A stretch of 14,648 nucleotides of DNA, taken from positions 1-14,648 of the forward strand of contig JACQGW010000072.1 of NCBI GenBank assembly GCA_016199325.1, written 5' to 3'. A program made the position numbers and the translations under genes. Under the pieces are notes generated by a model that saw nothing but the letters and a program-made list of their open reading frames with translations, was not told where the DNA came from and did not search any database. Shown piece by piece: positions 1,230 through 12,330 of the stretch. Each line of letters begins with the position of its first letter. Position 1 is the first letter of the stretch. The stretch comes from Chloroflexota bacterium (GTDB taxonomy: Bacteria > Chloroflexota > Dehalococcoidia > JACQGW01).

Positions 1230-4200
1230 GTGAACTACCAGGACGCCGGGATCGCCCGGGAATCTGTCGGGAAGGGACCGGACCGCATCGCCCGCTGGGT
1301 GAGGACCGTGCGGGCGCTGCCGGTTGTGGTCCCGCTGGCCGCGCTGACCCTCGTGTATACCTTTCCGCTGGCGCTGGAGGCCGCGGGCGCGATGCCCTTC
1401 GTCACCGGCGACCCGGCGCTCCTGACCTGGGTCATGATGTGGAACTGGCAGAGCCTCTGGCAGGCATCGTGGTCGCTGGCCGACGCCAACGTCTACTTCC
1501 CGGCCAGAGGAACGCTCTTCTTCTCCGATCTGCTCCTGCCCGCGACGTTGCCGTTCGGCGCGATCTACGCCGTCAGCGGGAACCCGATCCTCGCGGGCAA
1601 CTGGACGGTGCTGCTCTCGATCTTCCTGAACGCGGCCTCGACGGCCTGGCTCGCCCATCGGTGGACGAATGACCGCCTGGCTGCCTTCGTCGGCGGGGCC
1701 GTCGGCGCCTTCAGCCCTCTGATCCTGGCCAAGCTCATTCATTTCCAGTTGATGATGTTCTGGTGGACACCCCTCGCCCTGGTTTTCGCCGACGCCTACA
1801 GCCGGCGGCCGCGCTTTCTCGCCGGCCTCGGCGTCGTGCTCTGCCTCTGGCTTCAGTTCCTCACGGCCGTCTATCTGAGCTTCTACACGCTCTTCGCCTG
1901 CGCCATCCTGCTGGCGACCGCCGCAGCCACTTTTCGGCGCGGACCGTTTCTCGGGAGGGCTGTCGCCATGCGTTGCCGAGCTGAATCTCGGGTCACGGTT
2001 GGAGCGTCCGGTAAGCCGCCGGCGGATCCGATCGACTCCCCGTCTGCCACGCTGAGCCGCAGCGAGTCGTCCGCGGATCTGACGGACTCCTGGTCTGCCC
2101 GGCTGAGCCGCAGCGAAGCATCTCCCCGGGGCGACGCGGCAGCGTTCGGGAGATGCTTCGCTGCGGCTCAGCATGACAGTGAACCGGCGGGCCCATCCGT
2201 CACAGACTTGGCGGATGCGCCAGGACGACAACCACAAGCCAGGACGTCCTACCGGTTTGTAGCGGTCGCCTATGCGCTCTGCCGGAATCTGCTGGGGGGC
2301 CGGGGTCCGGGCGCTGAAGCGCCAACTACGAGCCGGGAGGGTGCTCCGGTTCGTAGTTGGCGCTTCAGCGCCCGGTTCCCCGGCCCGACGGGCGCCACTC
2401 GGCGCATCGTGTTGCACGGAATGGCGCTGGCGGCCGTCGCCGCGGCGCTGTTCCTGCCGCCCGTGCTTGGATACACGCGCGCCACCTCGGCGTGGGACGC
2501 GCAGCGCCCTCCGGACGAAGTCCGCGACGGCTCGGCGGGGCTCGCGAGTTTCCTCAATACCGACCCCGGCCTGGTGCTGTACGGCGAGCATCCCCTGCGC
2601 CGCTTCACCACCCAGGCGGCGCAGGACTACCAGAAGCGGCTGTTCCCTGGCTTTGCCACCCTGGCACTGGCGCTGCTCGCCAGCCGCTTTGTCGGGACGG
2701 GCCAGGCAGACCGGCAGCAACAGATCCGGCTGCGGGCCATGCTGCTCACGATCCTGGTGGCGGCGGTGCTCGCCGCCGGGCCCTACCTCATCCTCGGCGG
2801 CGGCGACACGGGTATCCCCCTGCCGTACCTCGCCTTGCAGAGCCTCGTTCCCGGGTTCCAGGCGATGCGGATGCCGGCCCGCTTCGCCCTGATGGCTGTG
2901 CCGGCACTGGCGGTGCTGGCCGCCTTCGGCATCCTCGCTCTCCGGCAGGGGGTGCTGGGGCCGCGCCTGGCCCGGATCGGTCCGTGGCTGGCGACGGGGT
3001 GGCTTCTCCTGGAGCTCCTGCGATCCCCGCTGCCGATGGTGCCATTCGACGATGCCTTCGATGGGGAGTCGCGCGAGCTGCTGGCGACTGCGAGGGGGGC
3101 CATCTACTGGCTGCCGCACGTCGAGCCGGACTACCAGTACGCCAACCAGAACATCGCCCTCGAAGTTGTCCGGATGGTCCAGAATCGCGCCCTGATCCCG
3201 ATGGTAAACGGGTACACCGGGCTGATGCCGCCCACCTACCTGGATCTCCACCGCCTGGCCTGGCTGGAGGCGCCGGCCCTCGTCGCGACCGTTCTGAAGA
3301 ACCTGGACGTGAGCACGGTTCTGCTGGACACCCGTCTGATGTCGCCGGCGCTGGTCGCCGAGTGGGATGCCGCTGCGAGAGACGAAGGGTCGTCCGTTCG
3401 ATTTGCGCGGACGGCCGGAAACGGCCGCTTGCGCCTCTACGAGATCGGCCGGGTGCCGAGTCCGGCGCCGGTTGTGAACGCCGCGATTGCCAACGAGCAG
3501 TTCGAGGTCAGCCGTCCCGCCACGCTCTTCCTCGACTTGACGAACGCCGAGCCGGCGCCCTGGGTCAACCGCCATGTGGACGGCCTCCAATCGGTCGGCG
3601 TCCGGTGGGTCTATCAATCGGACGGCCGGACCTACTCGGCCAACGTGCGGGCCGCCCTTCCCCTCTACGTGGCCCCGGGCGGAGCGGCAACGGCGCGCCT
3701 CTCCGTCACGGCGCCGCCGGTGGCCGGCGAGTACGACCTTGCAGTCGACGTCCAGGGCGCGCTCCAGGCGCGTCGCCGGGTTGCCGTCACGACCGATCGC
3801 CCGCCGACGTCCAGGGAGCGCGGTGGGGAGATCACGGCCGAGCTGCGCATCGAGCCGGCGCTGGCGCCGGAGCTGACGCTTCGGCCGGGGGCCCCGCTAC
3901 GGCTGCGCGGCAGCGTCGCCAACACCGCTGCGGTGATCTGGCCGATCTTCAACCCGCTCGAGCCCATCGGGCACGTGCGGGTCGGCTATCGGTGGTACCC
4001 GCGCGGTCGTGAGAACCCTGAATCCGAGCTGCGTGGACTTCAGGGACGCTTCGATCTCAGCCGTGCAGTCTGGCCGGGGCAGTCGGCGCCGATTGCCGGA
4101 ACGATCCTGGCGCCGGGCGAGCCGGGCCAGTACACGCTGGAGATCGGTCTGGTCGTAGAGGGCATCGCCTGGCTGCAGGAAGCGCGGCCGCCACGCAGCG

Positions 4201-4241
4201 CGGGCGTCTGGACGGCGATCGTCGTTCAGCGCGGCGAATGA
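1230..4241 (+). CDS. Large GT39/YfhO-like membrane protein with C-terminal beta-sandwich domains and an in-frame repeat insertion
   Basis: This 1003-residue protein has a polytopic membrane core (about residues 30-600), a soluble extracytoplasmic region (about 615-745) and two successive beta-sandwich-like modules (about 745-855 and 870-1000). The modules share 'RW(V)Y...GR' strands and 'PGxxA...APxxxGxY' turns. The first extracytoplasmic loop carries GDP (60-62) and DAN (85-87), both conserved in its paralogue at 8888-11428. This fits an enzyme or relative of the GT-C class acting outside the membrane; the acceptor is unknown. Compared with the paralogue it has about 138 extra residues (near 247-390), made of palindromic repeats rich in Ser, Arg and Ala, between two membrane segments. 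Other frames also give long open stretches, as expected at this GC content; conservation with the paralogue selects this one. The GTG start is the first in frame with a nearby SD-like sequence. Confidence 0.85.
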   Translation: MNYQDAGIARESVGKGPDRIARWVRTVRALPVVVPLAALTLVYTFPLALEAAGAMPFVTGDPALLTWVMMWNWQSLWQASWSLADANVYFPARGTLFFSDLLLPATLPFGAIYAVSGNPILAGNWTVLLSIFLNAASTAWLAHRWTNDRLAAFVGGAVGAFSPLILAKLIHFQLMMFWWTPLALVFADAYSRRPRFLAGLGVVLCLWLQFLTAVYLSFYTLFACAILLATAAATFRRGPFLGRAVAMRCRAESRVTVGASGKPPADPIDSPSATLSRSESSADLTDSWSARLSRSEASPRGDAAAFGRCFAAAQHDSEPAGPSVTDLADAPGRQPQARTSYRFVAVAYALCRNLLGGRGPGAEAPTTSREGAPVRSWRFSARFPGPTGATRRIVLHGMALAAVAAALFLPPVLGYTRATSAWDAQRPPDEVRDGSAGLASFLNTDPGLVLYGEHPLRRFTTQAAQDYQKRLFPGFATLALALLASRFVGTGQADRQQQIRLRAMLLTILVAAVLAAGPYLILGGGDTGIPLPYLALQSLVPGFQAMRMPARFALMAVPALAVLAAFGILALRQGVLGPRLARIGPWLATGWLLLELLRSPLPMVPFDDAFDGESRELLATARGAIYWLPHVEPDYQYANQNIALEVVRMVQNRALIPMVNGYTGLMPPTYLDLHRLAWLEAPALVATVLKNLDVSTVLLDTRLMSPALVAEWDAAARDEGSSVRFARTAGNGRLRLYEIGRVPSPAPVVNAAIANEQFEVSRPATLFLDLTNAEPAPWVNRHVDGLQSVGVRWVYQSDGRTYSANVRAALPLYVAPGGAATARLSVTAPPVAGEYDLAVDVQGALQARRRVAVTTDRPPTSRERGGEITAELRIEPALAPELTLRPGAPLRLRGSVANTAAVIWPIFNPLEPIGHVRVGYRWYPRGRENPESELRGLQGRFDLSRAVWPGQSAPIAGTILAPGEPGQYTLEIGLVVEGIAWLQEARPPRSAGVWTAIVVQRGE
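2022..2123 (+). repeat. 51-bp imperfect tandem duplication inside the 1230-4241 coding sequence
   Basis: Unit 1 (2022-2072) and unit 2 (2073-2123) match at about 40 of 51 positions and share GCTGAGCCGCAGCGA exactly. The period of 17 codons keeps the frame, giving two related peptides ending in '(T/R)LSRSE'. Unit 2 runs directly into the left arm of the palindrome at 2102-2172, so unit 1 looks like a decayed extra half-element. Confidence 0.8.
2102..2172. repeat. Palindromic repeat, family A, copy 1 (within coding sequence)
   Basis: A perfect 25-bp inverted repeat: left arm 2102-2126 begins GCTGAGCCGCAGCGAAGC, right arm is 2148-2172, with a 21-nt loop between. The element is translated as part of the host protein: 'LSRSEASPR' on the left and 'GRCFAAAQHD' on the right. 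The same arms occur at 6273-6355 in another gene. Confidence 0.9.
2309..2373. repeat. Palindromic repeat, family B (within coding sequence)
   Basis: A perfect 23-bp inverted repeat: left arm 2309-2331 begins GGGCGCTGAAGCGCCAACTA, right arm is 2351-2373, loop 19 nt. Similarity continues outward imperfectly, with GGCCGGGG on the left and CCCCGGCC on the right. It is translated as 'GAEAPTTSRE' and 'RSWRFSAR'. The sequence is unrelated to family A, so the insert in this gene is composite. Confidence 0.9.
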
Positions 4242-4308
4242 ATCCGTCGCATACGTTCGGTGCGGCGTGATCCGGGCTGGCGAGGCCTGGCACGTCGATC
4301 TGGTGCTC

Positions 4309-4390
4309 GCCGGGGAACGGAGCACTCACGTGCGCACTACGAACCAGTGCCGCCGCTCGTAGCGCGCACGTGAGTGCTCCGTTCCCCGGC
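4309..4390. repeat. Palindromic repeat, family C, between two membrane-protein genes
   Basis: Inverted repeat with 34-bp arms matching at 33 positions: left 4309-4342 begins GCCGGGGAACGGAGCACTCA, right 4357-4390, loop 14 nt. It occupies the middle of the 277-bp spacer 4242-4518, where I see no gene. It could fold into a very stable hairpin in a readthrough transcript. There is no following T-tract, so I do not call it an intrinsic terminator. It could still stabilise 3' ends or limit downstream expression. Confidence 0.9.
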
Positions 4391-4518
4391 GATGCAAGGA
4401 GCACCGCACATGGCCCTGGAGGCTCACGGGCGCGAACTGTGCTCCGGGGCACTCCCTGGTTCGCGGTGTCGTGAACGCTGGCGACTCGATCGCGTAGACC
4501 AACGTCCATCGGAGGCAC

Positions 4519-7008
4519 ATGGACCCTACTGCTGGCTTGAATCTCGTCCTGCTGATGGTTTCCGTGCTGGCAGCCGGCGGCAGCGCCCTGCTCGCAATGC
4601 GCCGCCGGCCCGGCGTGCCGCTGGATCTGACGGCCGGCGAATCGCTCTATCTGTCGGCGGTCGTCGGGGCGGTGGCTGCTTCCTGGCTGGGACTAACACT
4701 GGCCGAGCTGGGACGCTTCTCGCTGCCGGCCTTGATGGGTCTCCTGCTGGTCTTCGCGCTTGTCCTTCAGCTCTATCACTTCTTTCAATTCGGCCACGGG
4801 CGGCGACACAGGGGTGCCCCCCCGTGGTCGCCCTCTCCGTCGCACCTCGCAGCGTCGCTGCGATTCCGTTTGTCTCCGACGCGACACGACCTGCTGCTGC
4901 TGGCGACGCTGGCGCTGGCCATCGCACTGTTCTTCCGGCCCCACGAATTCGTGCTCGGTGGACGTGACCCGGGGGCGTACGTCAACACCGGTGCGACGAT
5001 TGCCCGAACGGGAGCGATCCTCGTGCGCGACCCGATGGTGCCGGCGCTGACGCCGGAGGAGCGGGGCTTCCTCTTCGCCGACACGCCCGTGCCCTGGATT
5101 CGCAGCGGCTGGCCCGGCTACCAGATGCTCAACTTCCACGAGGGCATCGTCGAGCCCCACGGGCTTCACCTGTTTCCGGTCTGGCTGGCGGCGCTGGGCG
5201 CCGCCGGGGGAGTCGAGATCAGCCTATTCGCCATGCCTGTGCTCGGCCTGCTCTCGGTGGCGAGCGCGTACTTCCTGGGCCGCCGCCTGTTTGGCCGGGG
5301 CGTCGGGCTGCTGGCGGCCTTTCTCCTGACCATCAACGTCGCCGAGGTCTGGTACGCACGATACCCTGCCGCCGAGATGCTCGTCCAGTTCCTCGGACTC
5401 GCCGGGCTCTACGTGTTCGTGTTGATGCTCCAGACGCACCGGCTGGGACTGGCCGTGCTCGCCGGCGTGAGCTTCGGCCTCGTACACCTGGCGAAGATCG
5501 ACGCCATTGCCGTGGTTGTTGCACTGGCCCTCTACGTCGGCTACGAGTCGCTTACGGGCAGCTTCCGGCGAGAGTATGCCGTCTTGCTGGCCACGTTCGG
5601 ACTGTTGCTCGGGCAGACAGTCGCCCACGCCGCCCTCATCGCGCCGGCCTACGCCCTCGCTCAGGTCATGGCGGCGATCCCCGGGATCGACCCCGGCGCC
5701 TTCGATCGGGCGGATGCCAATCACCCGTTCACGGCCTCGTTCGCCATCGACTTCCTGCGCTCCAACGTTCGCCAGGCGGCAACGCTGGCGGCGGCCGGTG
5801 CGCTGCTGCTCACCCTGGTGGTCGCCGGCCATGGCCGGCTGAAGGGCGCGCCTGCGTTCCTGCGCCGGCATCGCCGCCGGCTCTCGGTCGGCCTGGCGGT
5901 GTTCGTGATCGGCCTGGCGTTGTACGCCTATTTCGTTCGGCCGCTGGGCGGTCCGGTATCCCCGCCGGGCACGATGGCGGCGGCGATCGAGCTGAGCGAC
6001 CGGCGCAGCCTCGTCTGGCTGGGATGGTATCTGTCGCCCCTGGGGCTGGCGCTGGCCATCGCCGGCTTCCTGCACCTGGCCGCGACGACGCGCGATCGGG
6101 CAGTCGCCCTGTTCCTGCTGATGGCGATGGCCGGCACGGTTCCGTTCCTCTTCCGGACGCTCGTCGCGCCGGATCACTTCTGGGCCGCGCGGCGCCTGCT
6201 GGCGGTCGGCGTGCCGGCGTTCGTCCTGCTCGCTAGCTACACGATTCTCAGGATCCCGCTGCCTCCGTGGTCTGTCATGCTGAGCCGCAGCGAAGCATCT
6301 CCCCGGCACGAACAGGGACCGCCGGGGAGATGCTTCGCTGCGGCTCAGCATGACAAGGCACGGGTCGCTCAGCATGACAAGGCACGGGCCGCTGCGGTTC
6401 AGCATGACGAGTCACTGTCTTGGCGTCTTGGCGGTTCGACCTCTCCCGAATCGGCACTGCCGCTCGACACCCTGCCCGCAGGAGCGCCTCGGCTGCGTTT
6501 CCCGGCTGCCCTGCTCCTGCGCGCGCTCTTGATCGGGCTGCTGGCCGTTCTCTATGGTCGAGCGACCTGGCCGTTCCTGGGGCATCAGGAGTACGCGGGG
6601 GCGTACCGGCAACTGGCGCTGGTCGCCGCGGCTGTGCCGCCGGAGGCGATCCTGGTGCTCGAATGGCCCGAGCCCGCTCAGCGCCTCGCCACGCCGCTGG
6701 CGCAGCTCTTCGAGCGCGATACCTTTGCGCTGCGGCGGGAGCACCTGGGCGATCCACGGCTGGCGGCCTTCGCCCGGCGATGGTCCGGCTTCGGCCGCAC
6801 CGTGTTCTGGCTGGGCGCCGGGCCGGTCGCGCCTGCCGGCCGGCAGGAGAACGCCGCCGTCGGATTCGAGCCGGCCGGTCGCTATGCGCTCGACCTGGTC
6901 CATGCGGAGGCGCCCAACGACCGATTGCCGACACGCATCGAGCGCGAACGGCTGGACCTGTGGCTGTATGAGCTGCCGGCCACGCAGACGACATCTCTTG
7001 GGAGGTAG
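4519..7008 (+). CDS. GT39-like polytopic membrane glycosyltransferase with in-frame repeat insertions
   Basis: An 829-residue protein with three N-terminal membrane segments (about 8-26, 44-66, 70-90), a basic loop (about 92-124), then a GT39-like core. The first extracytoplasmic loop has 'GGRDPGAYVNTG' with Asp150, followed by 'EPHGLHLFP' near 212-220 and 'RYPAAEM' with Glu286. These are placed like the acidic and His residues of GT-C enzymes using polyprenyl-phosphate sugars. The C-terminal part (about 690-829) is soluble. Residues about 586-650, between two membrane segments, come from palindromic and direct repeats; the loop near 95-107 contains half of another repeat family. GGAGG at 4511-4515 lies only three bases from the ATG, an unusually tight spacing. 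The stop is one base from the next start, suggesting coupling. The sugar and acceptor are unknown. Confidence 0.85.
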   Translation: MDPTAGLNLVLLMVSVLAAGGSALLAMRRRPGVPLDLTAGESLYLSAVVGAVAASWLGLTLAELGRFSLPALMGLLLVFALVLQLYHFFQFGHGRRHRGAPPWSPSPSHLAASLRFRLSPTRHDLLLLATLALAIALFFRPHEFVLGGRDPGAYVNTGATIARTGAILVRDPMVPALTPEERGFLFADTPVPWIRSGWPGYQMLNFHEGIVEPHGLHLFPVWLAALGAAGGVEISLFAMPVLGLLSVASAYFLGRRLFGRGVGLLAAFLLTINVAEVWYARYPAAEMLVQFLGLAGLYVFVLMLQTHRLGLAVLAGVSFGLVHLAKIDAIAVVVALALYVGYESLTGSFRREYAVLLATFGLLLGQTVAHAALIAPAYALAQVMAAIPGIDPGAFDRADANHPFTASFAIDFLRSNVRQAATLAAAGALLLTLVVAGHGRLKGAPAFLRRHRRRLSVGLAVFVIGLALYAYFVRPLGGPVSPPGTMAAAIELSDRRSLVWLGWYLSPLGLALAIAGFLHLAATTRDRAVALFLLMAMAGTVPFLFRTLVAPDHFWAARRLLAVGVPAFVLLASYTILRIPLPPWSVMLSRSEASPRHEQGPPGRCFAAAQHDKARVAQHDKARAAAVQHDESLSWRLGGSTSPESALPLDTLPAGAPRLRFPAALLLRALLIGLLAVLYGRATWPFLGHQEYAGAYRQLALVAAAVPPEAILVLEWPEPAQRLATPLAQLFERDTFALRREHLGDPRLAAFARRWSGFGRTVFWLGAGPVAPAGRQENAAVGFEPAGRYALDLVHAEAPNDRLPTRIERERLDLWLYELPATQTTSLGR
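4808..4834 (-). repeat. Half copy of palindromic repeat family E inside coding sequence
   Basis: This stretch matches the right arm of the repeat at 11721-11747 at about 21 of 27 positions, sharing CCCCCCGTGG and a GCCCT end. It is translated within a basic, proline-rich loop of the 4519-7008 protein ('RGAPPWSPS'). The other half is not evident, so this appears to be a decayed or partial insertion. Confidence 0.6.
6273..6355. repeat. Palindromic repeat, family A, copy 2 (within coding sequence)
   Basis: A perfect 35-bp inverted repeat: left arm 6273-6307 begins TGTCATGCTGAGCCGCAGCG, right arm is 6321-6355, loop 13 nt. It contains the 25-bp arms of the copy at 2102-2172 without a mismatch. 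It is translated in the same frame as that copy, giving 'MLSRSEASPR' and 'GRCFAAAQHD'. It falls in a loop between two membrane segments of the host protein. Confidence 0.93.
6343..6409 (+). repeat. Direct repeats trailing the family A palindrome
   Basis: GCTCAGCATGACAAGGCACG begins at 6343 and again at 6367 (24-bp period). A third, diverged copy of the core, TTCAGCATGAC, begins at 6398. The spacings are multiples of three, so the frame is kept, and the peptide 'AQHDKAR' is repeated. The units are copies of the palindrome's right edge, pointing to local duplication after insertion. Confidence 0.8.
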
Positions 7009-7009
7009 G

Positions 7010-8914
7010 ATGGCGGAGACGCTCGCGACGAGGGCAAACGACGAAGGGGCGACTCCACTCGTGTCGCTCATCGGGTCGGGTCGGGCACGGGTCGCCTGGA
7101 TCGCCGGGTTCGCCCTCGCCGTCGCCCTGGGAGTCGCCGTCCAGGTCTGGGCCGCACTCCAGTGGTCCGCCAACGCGGACGGCGATGAGGCGGTCATCGG
7201 GCTTATGGCGCTCCACGTTCTCAAGGGGCAGATCCCGACTTACTACTACGGCCAGACCTATCTCGGCAGCCTCGACGCGATCCTGTCGGCGGCCGTGATG
7301 CGGCTCTTCGGCGATGGCGCCGTCGCGCTGCGGGCCAGCTCGCTGATCCTGGCCGGCGCGTTCTTGCTCCTCCACGGCAGACTGGTCTGCCTTCTCTGGG
7401 GCAGGCGCGTCGCCCTGCTGAGCCTGCTGGTGCTGGCGCTGCCGGGCTGGCGTGTCCTCTGGTGGACCTACAAGCCGATCGTCGCCTTCGGCGCTATGGC
7501 CGCCCTGGGCACGGCGGCTCTCCTCCTGATGCACCGGATGCTGTCGTCCAGGGACCGCCCCGGAAGGCCATGGCAGGGTCAGGCCAGACTGGTCGCGCTG
7601 GGCTTCGTCGTCGGCCTTGGGCTGTGGGTTCATCCCATGACGCTCGTGTACTTCGCAACAGTCGGAGTCGTCTTCTGGCTCGGGACGCCGGAGTGGGCCG
7701 CGCTCCACCAGAAGGTGGCGCGAAGCTCATTCAGGATGATGTTGCCGCTCGTGGCCCTTGGCGCCGCCGGGCTGCTGGCGGTCTCCCTCTTTACGAACGG
7801 GTGCGTGCCGCAGGCGCTCTACTCGACAGGCCAGACGATCTCGCGCGTCCTGCTGGTCGGGCTGGGAGCCGGCCTCGCGCTGGCCGCCGTCCGCGTGAGC
7901 ACCCGTCGCCGGGACCTCCTCGCCGGCGCGCTGAGCGTGGCGGCAGGGCTGGCGATCGGGAATCTGCCGCAGTGGCGGGCCTGGCTCTTCTTCGGCGTCG
8001 CTCCCGCAAGCGGAGTCGTCCCGACGTGTTTGACCGAGGCGTCCGGCCGCGCCGAGCTCGTTCTGAGGGAGCTCGTGCCGGCCATGTGGGGGCTGCCGTC
8101 CTTCCAGGCCCTCCGCCAGTTGCCTCCGTCGCAGGCCGGGCTGTGGATCGTCGCGATGCTGCTGATGCTGGCGGCGCTTGGCGCCTTCGTGTGGCGTGAG
8201 CGGAGAGTCTGGTGGCCTATCCTGGCGCTGGCACCCCTTCCCCCGCCGGTGGGGCGAGCAGGCGGAGCCGCGGCGGTCGGGCTGCTCTTTGGCATCCCGG
8301 TGGTGCTGGCCGTCCTGGGCGGCAACACCCTCAACGTGTGGGCGGTCCGCTACCTGCTGATCGCCTGGCAGGCGAGCTCGGTGATCCTGGCGATCTTTCT
8401 CTCACGGGTGGTGAGCCGATCCCGCCTGCTGGGCGTCGCCGTCGTCGGGTTCTGGGTGTTCCAGGTAGGCGTCGCCAACCTCGTCGAGCTCGACGGCATC
8501 TGGAGCGCCCGCCGCGAGCGATTCTCGACCGAGACGGTCTCCGAACTCGATGCGTTCCTGTCGCAGCACAGCGTGGCGGGGGGATATGCCGACTACTACG
8601 TGGCCTACACGCTCAGTTTCCTGACCGAGGAGCGGCTGACCTTCGCGCCCTACAACGGCGGCGACCGCTACCCGGCCTACTCCGAGAAGGCCGCCGCCCT
8701 GCCCGTGCAGGCATACGTCTTCTGGCCCAGCACGATCCCGCCCGGGATCGCGCGCGCCGACGAGCTCGCCCGCGAGCTTCGCCAGCACAAGCTCGGCACC
8801 TTCGGCCCGGCCTTCCCAAAGGTGCTCGACGACCTCGGCAGGCGGGTTGTCCTGGAGCGGCGCCAGGTGGGAGAGTGGGACGTCTGGCTAGTCGGTGACG
8901 GTCACTGCGATTGA
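7010..8914 (+). CDS. GT39-like polytopic membrane glycosyltransferase
   Basis: A 634-residue protein with a membrane segment at about 29-50, then an acidic first loop 'NADGDEAVIGLMALHVLKG' (Asp59-Glu60) followed by 'YYYGQTYLGSLDA' (about 78-90). These are hallmarks of a common GT39-like family in which the acidic pair is thought to be catalytic. About ten more hydrophobic segments follow, ending with a soluble domain that includes 'GGYADYYVAYTLSFLTEERL' near 523-542, also typical of this family. The ATG at 7010 is preceded by GGGAGG (7000-7005), which overlaps the end of the upstream gene; with a one-base gap the two are likely translated together. The frame extends further upstream but that part only shadows the previous gene. 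Its last 27 bases overlap the end of the opposite-strand gene. Confidence 0.88.
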   Translation: MAETLATRANDEGATPLVSLIGSGRARVAWIAGFALAVALGVAVQVWAALQWSANADGDEAVIGLMALHVLKGQIPTYYYGQTYLGSLDAILSAAVMRLFGDGAVALRASSLILAGAFLLLHGRLVCLLWGRRVALLSLLVLALPGWRVLWWTYKPIVAFGAMAALGTAALLLMHRMLSSRDRPGRPWQGQARLVALGFVVGLGLWVHPMTLVYFATVGVVFWLGTPEWAALHQKVARSSFRMMLPLVALGAAGLLAVSLFTNGCVPQALYSTGQTISRVLLVGLGAGLALAAVRVSTRRRDLLAGALSVAAGLAIGNLPQWRAWLFFGVAPASGVVPTCLTEASGRAELVLRELVPAMWGLPSFQALRQLPPSQAGLWIVAMLLMLAALGAFVWRERRVWWPILALAPLPPPVGRAGGAAAVGLLFGIPVVLAVLGGNTLNVWAVRYLLIAWQASSVILAIFLSRVVSRSRLLGVAVVGFWVFQVGVANLVELDGIWSARRERFSTETVSELDAFLSQHSVAGGYADYYVAYTLSFLTEERLTFAPYNGGDRYPAYSEKAAALPVQAYVFWPSTIPPGIARADELARELRQHKLGTFGPAFPKVLDDLGRRVVLERRQVGEWDVWLVGDGHCD

Positions 8915-11428
8915 CACTACGGATCGGCCGGTCGGATCGGTGTTGTAGAACCAGGCGACGCCTTCGGCGACTGCGCCGATCCGCAGGGTGTAGGCGCCGG
9001 GCCTGGTCGGCGCCCTCAATGCACCGGCGAAGCCGATCGCCTCGCCGGGAAACACGTCGCGGGGCAGGTCGATCCGCCCCTGGAGGTCGGCCAGCTCGTG
9101 CTCGGGCGTTTCCCGCCCCCGCGGATACCATTGATAGCCGACCCGTACCTGCCCAGCACCGGGGACAGGGACGGCGGCCAGCCAGCGCGCCTGGCCGCTG
9201 TTCTGCAGTGACCCGTACAGGCGCAGCCAGGCGCCAGATCGGACGGATAGGCGGTCCGGCACATCGGCCCGAAGCCATAGGACGGACTGGAGGCCGGCCG
9301 GTCTCTCTCGCGAGGTCGTCGGTGCCTCTCGTTCAACCACTACGTCCCCCCGCGCACGGGCGACGCCGGCAGGGTCGATCTCCAGCGTGTACTCGCCTGC
9401 GATCCCGGGCGTCGTGACCTCCAGCGCAACCGAGGTCGTGCTGCCGGGCGCGATGTACAGCGGAGGGAGCAGCGGCTCGACGGCGGCGAGCTGCCGGCCG
9501 CTCGACCGGTGGGTCCAGCGGACGGCGGCGGACTGCCAGCCATGCAGTGAGCGGTTGACCCACGGAGCGAGGGTGTTGTTGGCGAAGTCCAGGCCCACGT
9601 TGACCCGGCTTTCCGCGGGGAGCCGACGAACTGGGATGACCAGATCGACCCGCGGGCTTGCCAATGCGGGACTGTCGATCTCGAGAAAGCGCAAGCGTCC
9701 CCCACCCGCCAGCTCGCGGATCGTGCCGGCGCCCGCGAGCGCCATCCACTCCGAGACCAGCGCCGCGTCCAGACGCGCCGTGTCCAGCACGACCGTGCGC
9801 ACGCCGAGGCCCCGCAAGATCGGCGCGACGACGCCGGGCTCCTCGGCGACGGTGAGCCGCTGGAAACCCCGGTAGGTGGGTGGAAGGTGGCCCGAGTAGC
9901 CGTTCACCATCGGGATCATGGCGCGATTCTGGACCATGCGTGCCGTTTCCAGATAGAGGTTGATGGGGTCGGACTCGGCCATTGGCAGCCAGATCACGGG
10001 GCCTGTCACTCGGGCGAGCGGATCGAGCGACGCCGGGTCGAAAACGTCGGCCAGCCGGCTCATGGGGATGGGCGCGCGCAGGAGCTCGATCAGGAGCAAT
10101 CCGAGCAGTGCCCAGGGCAGGATGCGCCGGCGGCCGGACAGGGGCCACTGACGCAGGGCCAGGACGCCGAAGGCGGCGAGGATCGACAGCGCCGGCACGG
10201 CCATCAACCCGAAGCGCGCTGCGCCGCGCATGGCCTGGAAACCGGGGAACACCTGGTACAGCGCCAGATATGGCAGGGGCACCCCGGTGTTCTGGCCGGA
10301 AAGGACGAGGAACGGCCCGAGTGCCAGCACCGCCGCTGCGACGCCGATCACCAGCGCTGCCAGAACGCGCCGGCGGTTCTGCGGGCTCAGCCGCCCGGAC
10401 CGAGCGTGGAGCAGCGCGATGGCGGCGAGGCCGAGCGGAACGAATCCGGGGAAGAGGTGCTTCTCGTAGTCGTTCTTCGACTGCGTGTACTGGCGCAGCG
10501 GATGATCGCCGTAGAGCAGGCTGAGCGGGTCCGTGCTCACGAAGCTCGCGGGGCTGGCCGAGAACATGACCACATCTGCGACGGTGCGTTGGGCGCCCCA
10601 CATCCGTGCCATCGCCTCGTACCCTGCGACCGGCGGCAGGAAGAGAGCGACGCCGACGGCACCGAGCACAGCCCCGTGTCCGAGCAAGCGGCGACGAGCT
10701 GTCCACATCCGGCGGAGCCACGTCGCCACACCCCCGTCGCGCCAGGTGCAGCCTCCGACGACGAAGATGTGGATCAGGCAGGCGAAGAGGACGTAGAAGC
10801 TGAGATAGACCGCCGTCATGAACTGAAGCCACAGGCAGACAACCACGCCGAGGCCGGCCACCAGACGAGGCCGCAGGAGATACGAGTCGAGGCAGATCAG
10901 CGCGAGCGGCGCCCACCAGAACATAATCAATTGGTAGTGGCCCAGTTGCGCCAGCATGATGGGGCTGAACGCCGCGACGGCGCCCCCGGCCAGGGACGCC
11001 ATTCGATCGCCGGTCCAGCGATAGGCGAGCCAGGCGCTGATGGCGCCGTTCAGGAAGACTGCCAGGAGCAGCGTGGAGTTCGCCGCCAGGATCGGGTTGC
11101 CGGTCAGCGAGTAGACGGCGCCGAACGGGAGTGCCGCCGGCAGAACGAGGTCGGAGAAGAACGCCGTTCCGCCGAGCGGATAGAAGATGTTGGCGTCCGG
11201 TAGCGTCCAGGGTGCGCGCAGCAGCGCGTGCCAGTTCCACATCAGCAGCCAGGTGATGAACGCCGGGTCGCCGGAGTTGTACGGCAGCGAGGTTGCCCAG
11301 GCGAGGACGATGGGATGCGTATAGAGCGGAGTCAGCGCCGCCAGCGGGCCGGCAACGGCCAGCGCCGTTCTGGCGCGGCCTCCCAGGCGGAGCATTGGCG
11401 TGACGTTGGTCAGGGTACGGACGAGCAT
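8888..11428 (-). CDS. Large GT39/YfhO-like membrane protein with C-terminal beta-sandwich domains (paralogue of 1230-4241)
   Basis: From the chosen ATG the protein is 846 residues: a polytopic core, a soluble extracytoplasmic region and two beta-sandwich-like modules ending '...VSIAVTVTD'. It aligns along its whole length with the 1230-4241 product: 'GDPA' near 53-56, 'DANIFYP' near 78-84, 'MVQNRAMIPMVNGYSG', 'LAPWVNRSLHGWQS' and 'VGYQWYPRGRE'. It has no equivalent of that protein's 138-residue repeat insert, so it shows the ancestral architecture. A likely role is transfer or handling of lipid-linked sugars outside the membrane, as for GT-C relatives, but catalytic residues are less obvious than in the 4519 and 7010 products. 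GGAGGAG at 11446-11452 is 17 bases from this ATG, rather far. GTG at 11473 (861 residues) or ATG at 11395 are alternatives. Confidence 0.85.
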   Translation of the reverse strand: MLVRTLTNVTPMLRLGGRARTALAVAGPLAALTPLYTHPIVLAWATSLPYNSGDPAFITWLLMWNWHALLRAPWTLPDANIFYPLGGTAFFSDLVLPAALPFGAVYSLTGNPILAANSTLLLAVFLNGAISAWLAYRWTGDRMASLAGGAVAAFSPIMLAQLGHYQLIMFWWAPLALICLDSYLLRPRLVAGLGVVVCLWLQFMTAVYLSFYVLFACLIHIFVVGGCTWRDGGVATWLRRMWTARRRLLGHGAVLGAVGVALFLPPVAGYEAMARMWGAQRTVADVVMFSASPASFVSTDPLSLLYGDHPLRQYTQSKNDYEKHLFPGFVPLGLAAIALLHARSGRLSPQNRRRVLAALVIGVAAAVLALGPFLVLSGQNTGVPLPYLALYQVFPGFQAMRGAARFGLMAVPALSILAAFGVLALRQWPLSGRRRILPWALLGLLLIELLRAPIPMSRLADVFDPASLDPLARVTGPVIWLPMAESDPINLYLETARMVQNRAMIPMVNGYSGHLPPTYRGFQRLTVAEEPGVVAPILRGLGVRTVVLDTARLDAALVSEWMALAGAGTIRELAGGGRLRFLEIDSPALASPRVDLVIPVRRLPAESRVNVGLDFANNTLAPWVNRSLHGWQSAAVRWTHRSSGRQLAAVEPLLPPLYIAPGSTTSVALEVTTPGIAGEYTLEIDPAGVARARGDVVVEREAPTTSRERPAGLQSVLWLRADVPDRLSVRSGAWLRLYGSLQNSGQARWLAAVPVPGAGQVRVGYQWYPRGRETPEHELADLQGRIDLPRDVFPGEAIGFAGALRAPTRPGAYTLRIGAVAEGVAWFYNTDPTGRSVVSIAVTVTD

Positions 11429-11519
11429 GCCGGTATCAGGTGGAACTCCTCCAGGTGCCCAGGAATGTAGCACAGTCCGGCCGAAAAGACGAGGGGGGAG
11501 AAGGGACCTAACCCCCCGG

Positions 11520-11883: not shown

Positions 11884-12330
11884 ATGACCACTGGTGCGCT
11901 CTCTTCGACCGAGTGGGAATACCTGCGTGCCCATCGGGTCGGTCATCTGGCGACGGCCGACCGCCACGGCCGGCCATCGGTCGTCCCGATCTGCTATGCC
12001 GACGACGGCGTCTTCATCTACTCGGCGCTCGACCTGAAACCGAAGAAGGTGGCGCCGACGCAACTGCGGAGGGTGCGCAACCTGTTGGAGAACCCCGTCG
12101 TCGCCTTCCTGGTCGACGACTACGCCGAAGACTGGACGCGGCTCGCCTACCTCCTCGTCCGCGGCCGGGCGTCGATCGTCGAGCCCGGCTCGGCCGAGCA
12201 CGCCGCCGCGGTCGAGCTCCTTCGCCGCAAGTATCCCCAGTACCGCCAGATGCCCATCGAGACGGTGCCGGTCATCCGCATCGCCCCGACGACGGCGACG
12301 GCGTGGGGGGCTGTCAAGGGGAACCGATGA
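11884..12330 (+). CDS. PPOX-class (split-barrel) flavin/F420-dependent oxidoreductase, TIGR03668-like
   Basis: A 148-residue protein of the size usual for the pyridoxamine 5'-phosphate oxidase-like split-barrel fold. 'VGHLATADRHGRPSVVPICY' (about 20-39), 'SALDLKPKK' and 'NPVVAFLVDDYAEDWTRL' correspond to the cofactor-binding strands, the Lys-Pro-Lys segment and the 'VDxYxxDW' motif of the TIGR03668 group. From family knowledge it is a soluble cytoplasmic homodimer binding F420 or FMN; the substrate is unknown. The frame is open upstream to 11737, but that part runs into repeat sequence and is not conserved-looking, so I start at ATG 11884. No good SD precedes it. It has no evident functional link to the membrane proteins. 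Confidence 0.85.
   Translation: MTTGALSSTEWEYLRAHRVGHLATADRHGRPSVVPICYADDGVFIYSALDLKPKKVAPTQLRRVRNLLENPVVAFLVDDYAEDWTRLAYLLVRGRASIVEPGSAEHAAAVELLRRKYPQYRQMPIETVPVIRIAPTTATAWGAVKGNR

Follow-up and report, generated by a model that had tools for sequence, protein, structure and literature searches.

A composite in-frame insertion of two REP-type palindromic repeats in a membrane protein gene of a Chloroflexota bacterium

The gene at 1230..4241 (forward strand) of the 14,648-nt stretch of DNA analysed here (the window) carries a composite in-frame REP insertion. The insert occupies 1970..2400 (forward strand), where alignment and reading frame assign about 140 extra residues (protein residues ~247-390) to a membrane protein, and it combines inverted pairs of two different repeats, referred to as family A and family B. 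The explanation that I consider likely is that two types of REP entered an existing gene in frame, and that the insert is probably translated as a disordered and roughly neutral spacer in a loop. This sits well with the core of the original prediction, in which palindromes had been inserted in frame in the manner of Rickettsia palindromic elements (RPEs): homologues lacking the insert were found, and the repeats recur in other genes.

Composition of the insert

Scanning the window for inverted repeats (loops of up to 60 nt) returned four with perfect arms of at least 25 bp, located at 2102-2172, 2307-2375, 4307-4392, and 6273-6355; the longest perfect arms in 20 first-order Markov shuffles of the window measured 9-15 bp. 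The insert contains the first two, and the original prediction had not mentioned the other two. The family-A pair (2096..2178, forward strand), which resembles a dimer of CGTC/TGTC-type REPs with the tags outward and the left tag degenerate, has perfect 25-bp arms (2102-2126/2148-2172) separated by a loop of 21 nt, and the family-B pair (2307..2375, forward strand), which fits a GTAG REP dimer with the tags inward, has perfect arms (2307-2331/2351-2375) around a loop of 19 nt. The original prediction had described two perfect palindromes with arms of 25 and 23 bp: both palindromes and the 25-bp arm were recovered, and the second arm measures 25 bp instead of 23. It had also listed a 51-bp tandem duplication as a component of its own. 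The duplication (2014..2115, forward strand, from sequence comparison; units 2014-2064/2065-2115, 51 bp each) is present at 80% identity, but it is not separate material, since the left arm of the family-A pair is part of it: the second unit extends into this arm itself (26/29 matches) and the first into a degenerate copy of it (22/29), with best values of 17-18 in a control using three letter shuffles of the window.

The 431-nt insert stretch reached a folding z of -11.5 against 100 shuffles, and the 97-nt stretch 2091-2187 around the family-A pair one of -8.0. The two family-A pairs of the window, the second of which is described below, fold at -41.1 and -51.4 kcal/mol (DNA parameters), and single family-A arms fold no better than shuffles (z of -0.4 and -0.2). 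Such very stable folds, and the mention of REPs as possible RNA elements in the available text of Di Nocera et al. (2013; PMC3733652), speak for a reading in which the palindromes serve mainly as mRNA hairpins within the coding sequence, acting on translation speed or transcript stability, with the peptide as a by-product. The hairpins are missing from the homologues, however, and a search of Rfam at gathering scores found no family, and I consider this reading improbable.

Reading frame and absence from homologues

Between 1980 and 2400 there are no stops in the host frame and four and six in the other two forward frames, so that the frame runs intact through the insert, as had been noted originally. 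Openness alone is weak evidence, because 461 of 5000 Markov-simulated inserts were open as well. It does bear on the idea that the ribosome skips the hairpins (translational bypassing), or that they are otherwise removed, and the peptide is never made. Strong hairpins are present at the site, but an insert free of stops in the host frame does not require skipping, and, besides the empty Rfam search, Pfam as the sole check for inteins gave no match in the 1230-4241 protein at E 0.01, which makes this idea highly improbable. Palindromes are prone to misassembly, and an assembly artefact or a decayed pseudogene has to be weighed for this reason; against it stand 1003 open codons with similarity to the paralogue on both sides of the insert in one frame, together with a further case in the adjacent gene and three in other records, and I regard it as quite improbable.

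The host is a polytopic membrane protein of 1003 aa with a GT-C-like fold: the top Foldseek matches were oligosaccharyltransferases and DPY19, with ArnT lower (E of 3.5e-6 and weaker), at low target TM-scores of 0.36-0.47 for the best sixteen matches. The heptamer TCATACG is repeated in tandem upstream of the gene (5.4 copies, 1121-1159). A paralogue without the insert is encoded on the reverse strand (8888..11473; 861 aa with the longest start) and is 50% identical and 142 residues shorter. About 138 extra residues had been proposed relative to this paralogue, which agrees with an insert of ~140 residues (1003 vs 861 aa), and of the claim that the two proteins are collinear everywhere else, the large gap at the insert site held while small indels were found elsewhere too.

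Aligning the paralogue and relatives, the check that had been asked for, gave 148 residues at the insert site in the 1230-4241 protein, 12 in the paralogue, and 2-14 in all 41 other family rows (24 loci and 17 proteins, P0004-P0020, out of 54 listed). The insert is hence missing from the paralogue and from 41/41 homologues, and the opposite outcome, homologues that all carry the region as conserved, non-repeat sequence, was not seen among these rows. The search returned no close orthologue of this protein with an empty site; its best-scoring homologues beyond the paralogue are ~30-38% identical. A range of only about 30-38% applies to the window proteins and their best-scoring relatives (paralogue aside), and a small protein at 11887-12327, which I take to be pyridoxamine-oxidase-like, is up to 59% identical to its relatives. 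The arms are perfect over 25-35 bp, yet the paralogues are 50% identical, which suggests that the insertion probably postdates the gene duplication by far, although repair between the arms could also keep them alike.

In an AlphaFold model of the protein (20 sequences, mean pLDDT 62.7), residues 252-383 have a pLDDT below 50 and are placed between helices 239-253 and 388-422, in line with the proposal of a tolerant loop between membrane segments. Low pLDDT is not special to the insert, because the C-terminal quarter of the protein is low as well. Active sites of GT-C enzymes face outward, and the insert probably faces the cytoplasm and would thus be remote from the active site, to judge from an arginine-rich loop of the paralogue and from a helix count that takes the N-terminus to be inside.

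In-frame copies in other proteins

The next gene (4519..7008, forward strand) encodes a PMT_2-type membrane protein of 829 aa (PF13231 at E 2.2e-7) with an in-frame family-A insert of its own. This second insert (6265..6438, forward strand) provides ~50-70 extra residues and consists of a family-A pair with perfect 35-bp arms (6273-6355) followed by tandem degenerate right half-arms (6360-6415); the site holds 81 residues in this protein vs 13-32 in 4/4 aligned homologues. Degenerate right half-arms follow each other with a 24-nt period over 6336-6415, a mirror image of the left-arm duplication of the first insert.

Searching proteins with the second-insert peptide (22 candidates scored) returned both window proteins and, from sources named as Chloroflexi, three others (P0057-P0059) that are known here as protein sequences alone: a member of the YfhO family with 983 aa (E 1.0e-5), one of the O-antigen ligase family with 630 aa (E 1.5e-5), and a hypothetical protein of 1444 aa (E 1.6e-3). 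In all five proteins the distance from LSRSE to AAQHD is 20 residues, and in each the family-A peptide lies between hydrophobic segments in a simple hydropathy scan. Repeats that never occur in other coding sequences, the second outcome that would have spoken against the prediction, were thus not what was seen. The family-B peptide GPGAEAPTTS was found in the 1444-aa protein (P0059) by reading its sequence, and a protein search with family-B peptide words (57 candidates) returned the window's own protein as its sole match. P0057, P0058, and P0059 carry more repeat-like peptides, among them NQKPETRNQKPET and a repeated LPAAGRGRGWG, which suggests further repeat families inside their coding sequences.

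The recurrence of the same peptides can be explained simply by the stops of the palindrome. Taken alone, each of the two family-A pairs in the window has one other forward frame that stops in the left arm and another that stops in the right arm, which leaves the host frame as the sole open one, reading ..LSRSEASP..RCFAAAQHD.. in both. A family-A pair of such spacing that keeps its gene open must therefore read this peptide, and shared family-A peptides need no selection. The argument is limited to family A, because two forward frames stay open in the family-B pair when it is taken by itself.

This bears on an alternative in which the insert was recruited for a function in the protein, such as regulation or docking on the cytoplasmic side, and is under selection for its peptide. 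A frame that is kept and the same peptides in five proteins, each between hydrophobic segments, speak for such recruitment, but common family-A peptides are to be expected when the other two frames hold stops. Moreover, third-position GC of 0.62-0.74 in three insert blocks departs from the 0.76-0.96 seen in 17 other blocks of the gene, pLDDT is very low, and the homologues manage without the insert, which together make recruitment unlikely. Tolerance of REP-type insertions as neutral loop spacers is the most likely reading.

An intragenic location is not usual for family A, as far as a crude coding test (open frame and codon-position GC) can tell: it was passed by 0/72 distinct family-A clusters in the fetched relatives (62 with enough flank) and by the two in the window. 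The protein search detects coding copies only and gives no in-frame rate for the window's lineage. Six family-A clusters in longer open frames, from four loci of a Thermomicrobiales MAG (L007, L011 twice, L015 twice, L021), were set aside, as the translations indicated a spurious frame or a repeat outside the conserved part, which is a judgement rather than a homology test. Three family-B passes of the coding test were counted as chance, being single unpaired hits with at most two mismatches, and two of these fall within homologues of the window protein (L062, L064). A 34-aa family-A peptide gave weak matches only in 158 genomes of the class of one family-A-rich genome (best E 2.4e-4, in that genome, G001), some of its matches lying in open frames of 313-520 aa; a 494-aa open frame with such a match (L021) was judged spurious.

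The two repeat families

The family-A arm can be written TGTC-ATNCT-ga-GC-nnnn-GC-ga-AGN'AT-CTC and is paired head to head in the window. Relatives were searched with the arm pattern GATNCTTCGC-nnnn-GCTCAGNATGAC, in which two single N positions are left free. This free N/N' pair is Watson-Crick in 123/129 listed copies (62/68 distinct) and takes three pair types, against 52.6 expected from the column make-up, where the 129 copies are the first places listed in each of 29 genomes; among matches from viral contigs the count was 29/30, with 14.5 expected. Covariation of this kind indicates that every family-A arm forms a separate hairpin, two of which make up the long palindrome as a head-to-head dimer, while the remaining stem positions are set by the search pattern and hence prove nothing. 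The stem has nine positions starting with AT, most of them fixed by the pattern, with a GA/GA mismatch at two positions and a 4-nt loop. The base before GTC, which is itself part of the pattern, was T in 58, C in 37, and G in 7 matches (n=102; some loci overlap), and the 3' tail is mostly CTC, in contrast to the unpaired CCA tail of the CGTC REP consensus. Tags point outward in both window pairs, and most family-A clusters in loci L001-L021 are single arms at the threshold used.

The family-B arm reads TCGTAG-TN-GGCGC-TTCA-GCGCC, and both arms in the window show TCGTAG, two bases, and the stem. Family-B loci of relatives, which had been fetched using the first of the two stems, contain GGCG/CGCC and an alternative GCGG/CCGC (36/49 units perfect), and three altered-tag controls each gave 0. 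A tag adjoining the stem, a short stem (5-13 bp) with a short loop, and a multi-copy, often dimeric occurrence are hallmarks of GTAG REPs, and family B, which shows the first two in the window and the multi-copy occurrence in other genomes, fits this superfamily. An intergenic palindrome at 4307..4392 (forward strand), 65 nt past the stop of the 1230-4241 gene, also has inward GTAG tags and perfect 29-bp arms, but its stem is unlike that of family B; both end in a similar GTTCCCCGGC box despite their different stems.

Comparison with known repeats

In-frame REPs are already known. Di Nocera et al. (2013; PMC3733652) described GTAG and CGTC REPs together with intragenic copies in several species, and assigned RPE-4 and RPE-6, which are intragenic repeats of R. 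conorii, to the CGTC-tagged REPs. With the GTAG REPs of that paper family B shares the GTAG tag, the short stem-loop, inverted dimers, a multi-copy occurrence, and known intragenic copies, a placement by description rather than against the 24 consensus sequences published there. The CGTC superfamily is characterised by CGTC tags (with TGTC and CCTC variants), stems of 8-9 bp that start with AT, loops of 4-5 nt, mostly head-to-head dimers, and no dedicated transposase. Family A resembles it in a CGTC/TGTC tag, a loop of 4 nt, and intragenic copies and, less clearly, in nine stem positions that start with AT, in the head-to-head pairing of both window pairs, and in a dedicated transposase not being evident in most of the family-A genomes searched; it differs in a tail of CTC instead of CCA and in the tandem GA/GA mismatch of its stem. 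To call the repeats unrelated to RPEs, as the first description did, was hence too strong, as family A resembles CGTC REPs, RPE-4 and RPE-6 included, by tag, loop, and head-to-head pairing, a likeness of described features rather than of RPE sequences.

Both here and in Rickettsia, palindromes lie in frame inside otherwise conserved genes and are read as extra residues, but the host is another one and two element types are joined in one insert. Of the REP inserts in the available text of PMC3733652, over half consist of dimers or grouped repeats that code for 20-30 residues, and clusters code for 43-82, compared with ~140 residues here. The enterobacterial repeats RU-1/RU-2/RU-3 (Delihas, 2007; PMC2759123) are similar by description, although not by sequence, in that small repeats lie in annotated genes with the frame kept, including one for a putative inner membrane protein; in contrast to the repeats described here, they are MITE-like units of 103-168 bp.

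In the available text of PMC3733652, Chloroflexi are listed for GTAG REPs only, with T. roseum GTAG-23 named, and the five phyla given for CGTC do not include them; the available part of the T. roseum genome paper (PMC2615216) holds nothing further on these repeats. Exact DNA words of the family-A repeats had no match in the literature, and the literature searched, with most subscription papers and supplements lying outside it, described neither CGTC-like repeats in Chloroflexi nor a mixed composite. The host group, the mixed composite, and the size are therefore new in the papers searched.

Proposed origin and wider reading

Families A and B would be non-autonomous repeats that spread at the DNA level, and a RAYT-like single-strand transposase acting in trans is proposed as a mover for the GTAG units only. 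A family-A pair that arrives in a gene would survive only if the phase is kept and the remaining stop-free frame is used. Here the insert would have landed in a loop that joins two membrane helices of the GT-C-like fold, the stretch around one family-A arm would then have been duplicated in tandem, and translation probably yields a spacer that is disordered and roughly neutral. Among the results that count against this explanation, a Y1_Tnp search, which covered 12 genomes other than the family-B genomes, gave no match in three of four family-A-rich genomes (G001, G003, G004) and three matches in the fourth (G002).

A wider reading, which I put forward tentatively and consider rather doubtful, is that a Chloroflexota lineage has repeatedly accommodated REPs of two superfamilies in loops on the cytoplasmic side of GT-C proteins and of other membrane proteins for envelope polysaccharides, with the stops of family A fixing the peptide. 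If so, such a palindrome would repeatedly give rise to new protein segments in frame. The insert itself extends in-frame REP insertion to a further host group and joins two REP superfamilies in one coding insert that is larger than the sizes quoted in the available text of PMC3733652. A palindrome with only one stop-free forward frame would explain why the same peptides recur, which is testable in any REP-rich genome, and a CGTC-like hairpin family with a covarying stem pair is added to the phylum of the Thermomicrobiales MAG, which that text does not list for CGTC.

Occurrence in other genomes

In a collection of 84,980 species genomes, the family-A 28-mer (one free base) was found in 21 stretches: 17 in the Thermomicrobiales MAG and one each in a Thermomicrobiaceae MAG, SKYG40, SKYG83, and an Acidimicrobiaceae contig edge. 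Allowing up to three mismatches, these five genomes hold 45, 21, 81, 69, and 1 copies, and a reversed control gave 0. The 28-mer on the Acidimicrobiaceae-binned contig edge (L020:34-61) is identical to that of the window and is the lone copy in its genome, where it is possibly mis-binned. The generalised family-A pattern occurred in 29 of 400 genomes, an even draw from the phylum of the Thermomicrobiales MAG, which its name gives as Chloroflexota, with up to 85 copies and 0 for the reversed pattern.

Family B was found in six of the same 400 genomes, with 28, 11, and 9 copies in three and one hit each in the other three; its reversed control gave four single hits, two of the three single-hit genomes (L089, L090) show a second arm nearby, and dimers are present in the family-B loci of relatives. 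Family-A hits were not found in the six family-B genomes, and twelve other genomes gave a single weak family-B hit, in G004. No genome with both families in number was found among those examined, and the window's lineage is therefore not among them. None of 47 genomes in the class of another genome (G148) contained a 26-nt family-A word, and a distant blastn search with the second insert found nothing in plasmids.

Neither the family-A 28-mer nor family B was found in a viral collection. The generalised family-A word gave 25 stretches there, and one contig (L204:8595-8970) carries five family-A arms in series at a spacing of ~87 nt.
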